Shown here: positions 41,519 through 43,828 of the stretch, piece after piece
Layout of the letters: the number at the start of each line of letters is the position of its first letter
Position numbering within the stretch: the first letter of the stretch is position 1
Source: Treponema sp.
Lineage (GTDB): Bacteria; Spirochaetota; Spirochaetia; Treponematales; Breznakiellaceae
DNA length: 64,000 nt
Direction of reading: 5' to 3'
Assembly (NCBI GenBank): GCA_009782555.1
Contig: WRIV01000008.1
Coordinates: 1 to 64,000 of the forward strand
Notes under the pieces: model-generated
The model's database searches: none
What the model was told of the DNA's origin: nothing
The model's input: only the letters and a program-made list of their open reading frames with translations
Program-made: the position numbers and the translations under genes

Positions 41519-41547
41519 TTGCCCAATCGTGTTTCTTTCCTTATAAT
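41519..41547 (+). promoter_or_regulatory. Promoter of the DedA-Psd/pssA unit
   Basis: TTGCCC (41519-41524), 17-nt spacer, perfect TATAAT (41542-41547). The start codon lies only 16 bp after the -10 box, so the leader would be about 9 nt. Confidence 0.65.
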
Positions 41548-41562
41548 GACCCAGGTATATCT

Positions 41563-42840
41563 ATGGATATTTTTTCTTGGTTGAGCGACTATGTTCAATT
41601 TTATCCCCTGGCCGCTCTAGCGGGGCTTCTCCTGGCGGGTCTGAACATCCCTATATCGGAAGATCTGGTGATCATAACCGGTGCCCTGCTAAATCAGGAA
41701 AGAGTGCTGGACCATGTCGCAGGAGCCAGGGGGATGCTTATCCCAAGTTTACTTGCGATCTATATGGGAGTTATTGCCAGCGATTTTATATCTTATTATC
41801 TGGGGACCCTGGTACGAAAGGGAACCTTTAGGGCAAAGTTTGCCGATACCCTGCTTACGCCTAAAAACCTGGATCGATTTAACAGACACCTGAATGAACA
41901 TGGCTTTCTTACCTTTATTATCTGCCGCTTCATTCCCTTCGGCGCCCGGAATACCCTCTTTATGACATCGGGTTTTCTGAACCTTCCCCTGCGCCGCTTT
42001 GCCCTCTACGACATTACCGCCGCGCTGATCAGTACTAACACCTTGTTCTTTCTGGTGTACAACTTCGGGGATGAAATACGGAGTCCCATCAAGGTGGCGG
42101 GCATTATCCTTTTTATCCTGTTGGTTTTGACCGTTCTGTTTCTGATAATCCGCTTTCTGATGCGAAATCCCCTGACTCTCTGGGGTCTTCCTCAGGTGGC
42201 GGTTTTCCCTGCCCTCATTGCAGCGGGAATGGCCGCCCTTTTTGTATACTGTCGTCAATACTTTTGGATCGTTCCTGTCGAGACAGCGTTGTTTTTGATT
42301 TTCTTCTGGATGCTGGCTTTTTTCCGGAATCCTCCCAGAAAAATTGTGACTGATGAATTGATTCTCTATGCTCCGGCGGACGGCAAGGTAACAGATATTT
42401 CCGAAGTGGAAGATGAAGAACATGGACCTCTTTTGCGGATTGGTATTTTCCTTAGTATTTTTAACGTCCACCTAAACCGCGCTCCCTGTTCTGCCAGAAT
42501 AGAACGGATCACCTATAAAAAGGGAATGTTTAAGGATGCCCGGGACCCGGACTCCAGCCGGGTAAACGAATCTAATGAATTACTGCTCACCCGCCTTGCC
42601 GAACCAAAGGATCGCCTGCTGGTCCGGCAGATCAGCGGAGCCATCGCCCGGCGTATAGTTTGCAAGGCAAAGGAGAAAGAAGAACTGTCGCAGGGAGCGC
42701 TCTTCGGCATGATCAAATTCGGGTCCCGTACGGAATTGTACCTTCCTGCCCGGAATGACGGGAAATATGAAATAGCGGTGAAATTAGGTGATTCCGTTCA
42801 TGCCGGGATCACCCCCCTTGTAAGGTACACCGGTGACTAA
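41563..42840 (+). CDS. DedA-phosphatidylserine decarboxylase fusion protein
   Basis: 425 residues with two parts. Residues 1 to about 200 are a DedA/VTT membrane domain: acidic pair Glu33-Asp34 in NIPISEDLVI, and the Arg-Phe-x-Pro-x-x-x-Arg type motif in CRFIPFGARN (Arg122, Arg129), with several helices. After linking helices, residues about 250-425 are a phosphatidylserine decarboxylase proenzyme: Asp273 in YAPADGKV, His303 in FNVHLNRAP and the self-cleavage Gly387-Ser388 in MIKFGSRTELYLP, which would give the pyruvoyl group. The enzyme makes phosphatidylethanolamine; DedA proteins are implicated in lipid flipping. pssA follows directly. The fusion is read without a frameshift or internal stop. 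Confidence 0.87.
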   Translation: MDIFSWLSDYVQFYPLAALAGLLLAGLNIPISEDLVIITGALLNQERVLDHVAGARGMLIPSLLAIYMGVIASDFISYYLGTLVRKGTFRAKFADTLLTPKNLDRFNRHLNEHGFLTFIICRFIPFGARNTLFMTSGFLNLPLRRFALYDITAALISTNTLFFLVYNFGDEIRSPIKVAGIILFILLVLTVLFLIIRFLMRNPLTLWGLPQVAVFPALIAAGMAALFVYCRQYFWIVPVETALFLIFFWMLAFFRNPPRKIVTDELILYAPADGKVTDISEVEDEEHGPLLRIGIFLSIFNVHLNRAPCSARIERITYKKGMFKDARDPDSSRVNESNELLLTRLAEPKDRLLVRQISGAIARRIVCKAKEKEELSQGALFGMIKFGSRTELYLPARNDGKYEIAVKLGDSVHAGITPLVRYTGD

Positions 42841-43828
42841 AGGAATGGAAAAACCTTCCCCTTCCCGCCAAAAACGGAAAAAAGAAAGAACTCCGGCGGT
42901 CGCTGCTTTATCGAAACGGAGGCGGCTTAAATATATTGCCGTGCTTCCCACGGGTGTAACCCTCATTAACGCTCTTTGCGGCTTCCTTTCCATTATTTAC
43001 GCCAGCCGGGGGGCGGGGGTCTTCTTGGATGCGTTCCTGCTTCACAAGACAGGAATTTCCTTTTTTGCTATGTCCGGTTATCTGATTGTCGTTGCCATGA
43101 TCGCTGATGTACTTGACGGTCAGGTAGCCCGATGGAGCGGAACTGCTTCCGGTTTTGGAGGCCAGCTGGACAGCCTTTCCGACGTTTTGAGTTTTGGCGC
43201 CGCTCCGGCGTTTCTAATGTTTAAAGTGATGGAAGCCAACCTGGTCCTTGAATCCTTCGTTCAGAATTTTTTTCCCCCGATATCTCATTGGAAAGTTTTT
43301 CCCCAGATAAATCCCCAGATGATTCAAATGGCGGGCCGGTGGATCCTGTTTGTTGCGCTCTTTTATGTACTCTGTACGGTTATCAGGCTTGCCCGGTTTA
43401 ATGTGGAAAACGACACAAACCTTTCCCACCACCAAAGTTTTGCCGGTCTTCCTTCTCCGGCAGCAGCAGGGGTAGTGATAAGCCTTGTAATCTTTCAGGA
43501 AGATTTTATTCCCATCATAGCAGACCGCCTGCCTGAGTTTTCTTCCGCCCTGATGGATATTACCATCCGGCTTCTGCCTTTATCAGCTCTTTTTTGCGGA
43601 ATTTTAATGGTAAGCAGAGTGCAGTATTCCCACCTGGCAAATAAGCTGTTTAGGAGGAAGAAAAATTTTTTTACTGTACTTCTGGTTTTGCTTGCGGGTT
43701 TCCTGGCGGTGTGGAACATCCAGCTTGCCCTGGTCCTGGGTTTCTGGGGTTTTGCCCTTTATGGTTTTGCCCGGGGTATTTTTAACGAAATCCGTACCCG
43801 GATCAAACAAAAAGTGTCCGCAGAATGA
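42833..43828 (+). CDS. pssA: CDP-diacylglycerol-serine O-phosphatidyltransferase
   Basis: 331 residues. Makes phosphatidylserine from CDP-diacylglycerol and serine in the inner membrane, the substrate of the fused decarboxylase upstream. The CDP-alcohol phosphotransferase motif is complete: DVLDGQVARWSGTASGFGGQ plus LDSLSD (D-G-x2-A-R-x8-G-x3-D-x3-D). A basic N-terminus (SPSRQKRKKERTPAV) precedes about eight hydrophobic helices; the protein is longer than the short Bacillus-type PssA. GTG 42833 overlaps the decarboxylase stop by 8 nt; ATG 42845 is the alternative. Confidence 0.88.
   Translation: MTKGMEKPSPSRQKRKKERTPAVAALSKRRRLKYIAVLPTGVTLINALCGFLSIIYASRGAGVFLDAFLLHKTGISFFAMSGYLIVVAMIADVLDGQVARWSGTASGFGGQLDSLSDVLSFGAAPAFLMFKVMEANLVLESFVQNFFPPISHWKVFPQINPQMIQMAGRWILFVALFYVLCTVIRLARFNVENDTNLSHHQSFAGLPSPAAAGVVISLVIFQEDFIPIIADRLPEFSSALMDITIRLLPLSALFCGILMVSRVQYSHLANKLFRRKKNFFTVLLVLLAGFLAVWNIQLALVLGFWGFALYGFARGIFNEIRTRIKQKVSAE

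Follow-up and report, generated by a model that had tools for sequence, protein, structure and literature searches.

The fused gene and its neighbourhood

Within the window, the whole stretch of 64,000 nucleotides analysed here, a single open reading frame of 425 aa (41563-42840, + strand) runs without interruption through a DedA/VTT membrane domain and a complete phosphatidylserine decarboxylase (Psd), confirming the original prediction of one unbroken two-domain gene. The Pfam scan assigned VTT_dom (PF09335) to residues 53-166 (E 3.6e-13, 50.5 bits against a curated cut-off of 33.9) and PS_Dcarbxylase (PF02666) to residues 249-416 (E 3e-33, 115.6 bits against a cut-off of 22), and detected no aminoacyl-phosphatidylglycerol synthase domain of the MprF type in the fusion. 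The coordinates first proposed, 41563-43828, marked the right region but cover two genes, with the fusion itself stopping at 42840; the second gene is the pssA that had been placed directly after it (42833-43828, CDP-OH_P_transf/pssA-like). The features of the locus are as follows:

41519..41547, + strand: promoter-like site TTGCCC-17-TATAAT, ending 15 bases 5' of the start codon
41563..42177, + strand: DedA/VTT membrane domain, fusion residues 1-205 (Pfam, E. coli DedA alignment, model)
42178..42325, + strand: junction and Psd's own N-terminal membrane helix pair, approximately residues 206-254 (model, unfused Psd alignment)
42326..42840, + strand: Psd catalytic domain with D273, H303 and the predicted G387/S388 self-cleavage site (Pfam, NCBIfam)
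42838-42840, + strand: stop codon of the fusion (psd)
42833..43828, + strand: pssA, CDP-diacylglycerol--serine O-phosphatidyltransferase, which makes the Psd substrate (profile matches)

The pssA-like match of the downstream gene scores 97 bits, under the curated pssA cut-off of 107, and the CDP-alcohol motif DG-x2-AR-x8-G-x3-D-x3-D can be read in the sequence of its product. The start of pssA overlaps the psd stop by 8 bases (ATGGCTAA or GTGACTAA), and the same overlap in four other fusions (G002, G003, G004 and G023) points to translational coupling. The promoter-like site has 10 of 12 matches, in a region whose count of such sites is not above that of shuffled sequences; its hexamer, 15 bases from the start codon, would imply a nearly leaderless mRNA. 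A TATAAT-like hexamer shortly 5' of the fusion start (window 41519-41562) also occurs in G003, G004, G023 and G138.

The Psd half belongs to the shorter PRK05305/archaetidylserine-decarboxylase-like class (NCBIfam PRK05305 series), albeit below the curated equivalog cut-offs, and shares with it the core, the D and H, the GS site and the N-terminal helix pair; unlike PRK05305 Psd, it has a whole DedA domain in front. It carries an FGS cleavage motif and is predicted to cleave itself between G387 and S388. The class reads FNVHxNR where the E. coli enzyme has DYHRxH, and only one of the two E. coli Psd histidines (H144) has a counterpart here, in a poorly scoring part of the alignment. The residues singled out beforehand (E33, D34, R122, R129, D273, H303 and G387-S388) are at the positions given for them and are invariant in 10/10 fusions. 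Every pair compared gives a dN/dS of ~0.06-0.19 for the VTT half and the Psd core alike, the junction being looser; both halves are under strong purifying selection.

Conservation and origin of the fusion

The search for the two-domain architecture across genomes that had been proposed with the prediction recovered the fusion in 10 genomes (10 assemblies) of 5 genera, with pssA next in every one; this conservation, together with the low dN/dS, led us to reject assembly error or chance. Each of the five genomes that represent the window's genus has the fusion at full length, as does G023, at 73-81% identity over the alignment, the further fusion genomes being G128, G135, G138 and G148. Separate translation of the two domains, raised at the outset as an objection to the fusion, is unlikely, and an independent start of Psd was rejected, since the junction holds no conserved start codon. 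In the window, the sole ATG close to where the Psd half begins is at position 200; four of the fusion's five nearest relatives have K, S, S or V there, and M200 is M in 2/6 fusions of alignment A1. Within the junction itself, ATG, GTG and TTG are all missing from two fusions, G128 and G148; the nearest start in the former is an ATG that precedes the Psd start motif by 29 codons, and in the latter a GTG located in the first helix of Psd (this count of junction start codons left out G138, which has the motif GFPQ, not GLPQ). The junction and N-terminal part of Psd align with the N-terminus of the unfused Psd (GLPQ...) of G035 and G015.

A profile of the fusion, applied to 394 genomes of the order, gave full-length matches in the window's family alone and matched only one half elsewhere; a match in G536 strays beyond the VTT half, yet across three stop codons. 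In a Psd scan of 393 genomes of the phylum, the fusion was seen in the window's own genome only, among the long Psd frames inspected; further VTT-Psd fusions were rejected there, the inspected frames being sodium:alanine symporter fusions or lacking a visible VTT domain. No relatives of the fusion were found in viral contigs, and the 15 plasmid records listed matched the Psd half only, at 35-38% identity, and no plasmid record covered 80% of the query; on these grounds spread by plasmid or virus was rejected.

On the Psd tree the ten fusions group together (support 97/97), which supports the fusion having probably arisen once; the VTT tree is compatible with a single origin. In G035, G059 and G060, dedA, psd and pssA are separate adjoining genes in the same order, so that the same three functions are linked before or without fusion, and relatives further outside carry either DedA by itself or a psd-pssA pair by itself. 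Most simply, the history would lead from separate genes through a shared operon to the fusion. The records with the fusion include MAG names such as Nt197P3bin20, and the code Nt197 occurs in a genome study of higher-termite guts (PMC7024585); judged by these names, the fusion lineage would consist mainly of termite-gut treponemes.

The DedA half and readings of its role

Against E. coli DedA proteins, the Treponema VTT profile scored 47.8 bits with DedA, 40.6 with YabI, 31.5 with YqjA and 30.7 with YghB, and 5.1 and 1.5 bits with YdjX and YqaA, so that by profile score the VTT half appears nearest to COG0586 and not to COG0398 or COG1238. A survey by Todor and colleagues proposed COG0586 proteins as undecaprenyl-phosphate carriers or flippases and listed acidic E39/D51 and basic R130/R136 as their essential residues (PMC10127716). 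With members of this group (UptA, YqjA, YghB and DedA) the fusion has in common the VTT fold, the arginine pair and the acidic D51 site: R122 and R129 align with R130 and R136 at the second re-entrant helix, and E33/D34 together align with the single D51 of E. coli YqjA/YghB. It differs from them in its C-terminal Psd, in an arginine spacing of 7 instead of the 6 of YqjA/YghB, with one extra residue in between, and in E39, for which the aligned Treponema orthologues have no acidic counterpart; the last of these led us to place the VTT half near COG0586 and not to file it as a standard member. Loss of the transport residues in close homologues had been named in advance as a finding that would speak against a transport role, and the arginines and acidic residues are instead kept in all fusions and in the 23 aligned orthologues. 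No residue separating fused from unfused VTT domains was found.

In the model of the VTT domain (mean pLDDT 79), helices are broken at 27-32 and 123-127, corresponding to the two expected re-entrant helices. Its standout structural matches were two viral VTT ('SNARE associated Golgi') proteins (prob 0.99 and 0.96, E 0.08 and 0.2); a PDB fold search with the VTT model gave nothing significant, and a PDB sequence search gave no match. The Psd half is modelled with membrane helices of its own at 208-229 and 236-253, within a full-length model of pLDDT 63 overall in which this half is poor. The first 13 residues contain no K or R, and FRNPPRK follows the last helix of the Psd anchor, a charge distribution that fits an N-terminus on the outside and a catalytic domain in the cytoplasm; an outside N-terminus has been suggested for UptA, and the VTT half would have the same orientation.

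Unfused orthologues have neighbours of several kinds. In several Treponema, the orthologue adjoins CDP-alcohol transferase genes. At two loci (L046, 4908-6630; L101, 1043-2879), it overlaps by 8 bases the end of ddl, the gene for D-Ala-D-Ala ligase, a peptidoglycan gene. In Treponema berlinense (L057, 5145-7538), DedA has a divergent pssA-like gene on one side and, on the other, the gene for a DUF368 undecaprenyl-phosphate translocase, and is therefore not the sole candidate for the undecaprenyl-phosphate job in that genome.

Undecaprenyl phosphate is the main rival to phosphatidylethanolamine as cargo of the fusion. The VTT half might be the cell's undecaprenyl-phosphate flippase, and the fusion might merely join housekeeping envelope genes of one operon, or anchor Psd. 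Such a role would agree with the COG0586-like profile, with the retention of both phosphate-binding arginines, with the description of COG0586 proteins as flippases of this kind (PMC10127716) and with the ddl-dedA gene pair in G206 and G215; moreover, neither a second VTT protein nor a DUF368 was found in the ten genomes with the fusion. However, 109 of the 200 family genomes have neither VTT nor DUF368 matches, including the single-contig G032 and G172, rated 100% complete, so the family evidently can do without both and another solution must exist. Complementarity between VTT and DUF368 is weak (Fisher p 0.16-0.18), and the repeated linkage to phospholipid head-group genes and the missing E39 counterpart likewise weigh against an undecaprenyl-phosphate flippase, which we regard as a distinctly less probable, if serious, explanation.

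A broader specificity is also conceivable: the VTT half could scramble lipids without specificity, phosphatidylethanolamine and phosphatidylserine among them, as VMP1/TMEM41B of eukaryotes or MprF do, with the fusion relieving the crowding of new lipid in the inner leaflet. Eukaryotic relatives of DedA are scramblases, and the flippase domain of MprF carries PG, PC and PE alike (PMC11980842). We nevertheless consider this improbable, since the presumed proton-coupling acidic residues are at least partly kept (E33/D34), unlike in the scramblase-type COG0398. A transport-dead VTT half, serving as a mere membrane anchor or oligomerisation platform for Psd, would suit an enzyme that works at the membrane, and fusions can serve anchoring. 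This explanation is very improbable: dN/dS in the VTT half is as low as in the enzyme half, its presumed substrate residues are invariant, and the Psd half has a membrane helix pair of its own.

Phosphatidylethanolamine as the proposed cargo and relation to known systems

To our knowledge, few DedA proteins have an assigned cargo, and being lastingly fused to an enzyme of lipid synthesis offers a natural hint to what is carried. The fusion suggests that one protein both makes phosphatidylethanolamine and moves the same lipid across the membrane. PssA, encoded by the next gene, would make phosphatidylserine in the cytoplasmic leaflet; the C-terminal half of the fusion, self-cleaved at G387/S388, would decarboxylate it to phosphatidylethanolamine; and the N-terminal DedA/VTT half would let the new phosphatidylethanolamine cross to the outer leaflet. 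Synthesis and transbilayer distribution would then be joined, as aminoacylation and flipping are in MprF. From knowledge of the two families, we infer that decarboxylation takes place on the cytoplasmic side and that the VTT half transports lipid.

We give an even chance to a single bifunctional inner-membrane protein, a synthase-flippase with phosphatidylethanolamine as its cargo. The more specific proposal that the transporter's cargo can be read from the enzyme half, with the product passed directly to the outer leaflet by a DedA-based equivalent of MprF with a single origin in gut treponemes, is put forward somewhat more tentatively. The idea in the original prediction that the fusion couples phosphatidylethanolamine synthesis to membrane transfer was borne out as regards the fusion and its conserved residues; what the DedA half carries is deduced, and its identity as phosphatidylethanolamine is the least certain part of the proposal. 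The protein is also a ready-made construct, on which synthesis and transport could both be assayed after a single purification, and a case in which to test whether the residue pattern of COG0586 truly predicts undecaprenyl phosphate as cargo.

Phosphatidylethanolamine as cargo is favoured by the fusion itself, by the older gene order dedA-psd-pssA and by the CDP-alcohol transferase neighbours in other Treponema. It is also favoured by co-occurrence within the family, with psd present in 14/16 genomes that have this DedA type vs 36/184 of those that do not (Fisher 6e-8, kinship ignored). Orthologues also occur in genomes in which no Psd was found (G037, G040, G045 and G034), so the ancestral cargo need not be phosphatidylethanolamine made by Psd.

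The B. subtilis DedA-family protein PetA (formerly YbfM) is reported to transport phosphatidylethanolamine (PMC12561984, PMC12893004, PMC11474028), which gives the idea a precedent; judging from these reports, a DedA protein carrying this lipid is not new. We liken the two by description, not by sequence, and PetA is a separate protein whereas the DedA domain studied here is fused to Psd. The petA gene of B. subtilis sits between pssA and psd, and the domain studied here is likewise linked to phosphatidylethanolamine synthesis genes, with psd fused and pssA next.

In MprF, a lysyl/alanyl-phosphatidylglycerol synthase-flippase, one chain modifies the head group of an inner-leaflet lipid and translocates the product (PMC11980842). 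The flippase is N-terminal, as here, but the MprF enzyme domain is unrelated (an aminoacyl transferase) and its flippase domain is different, so that the proposed resemblance would be one of logic only. Closer in composition are the fusions of DedA to the soluble synthase domain of MprF reported by Roney and Rudner 2023, as cited in PMC11980842, which by that account also combine DedA with a lipid head-group enzyme, although the enzyme differs. The DedA survey names rhodanese and PAP2, not Psd, as fusion partners of COG0586 (PMC10127716). No description of a DedA-Psd fusion was found in the literature searched; PetA's own paper, outside that search, may mention related fusions. The principle of coupling lipid enzyme and flippase is already known, as MprF illustrates, and no priority is claimed for DedA-Psd.

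A second, independent transporter-Psd fusion is found in other spirochaete families, in which a sodium:alanine symporter (AGCS, PF01235) domain precedes Psd in fused frames of ~730-820 aa. It is present at loci L121, L129 and L143 (G292, G226 and G369), and similar long frames occur in G250, G260, G347, G412, G423 and others; in some members (L142), the symporter part of the frame is too diverged for Pfam.
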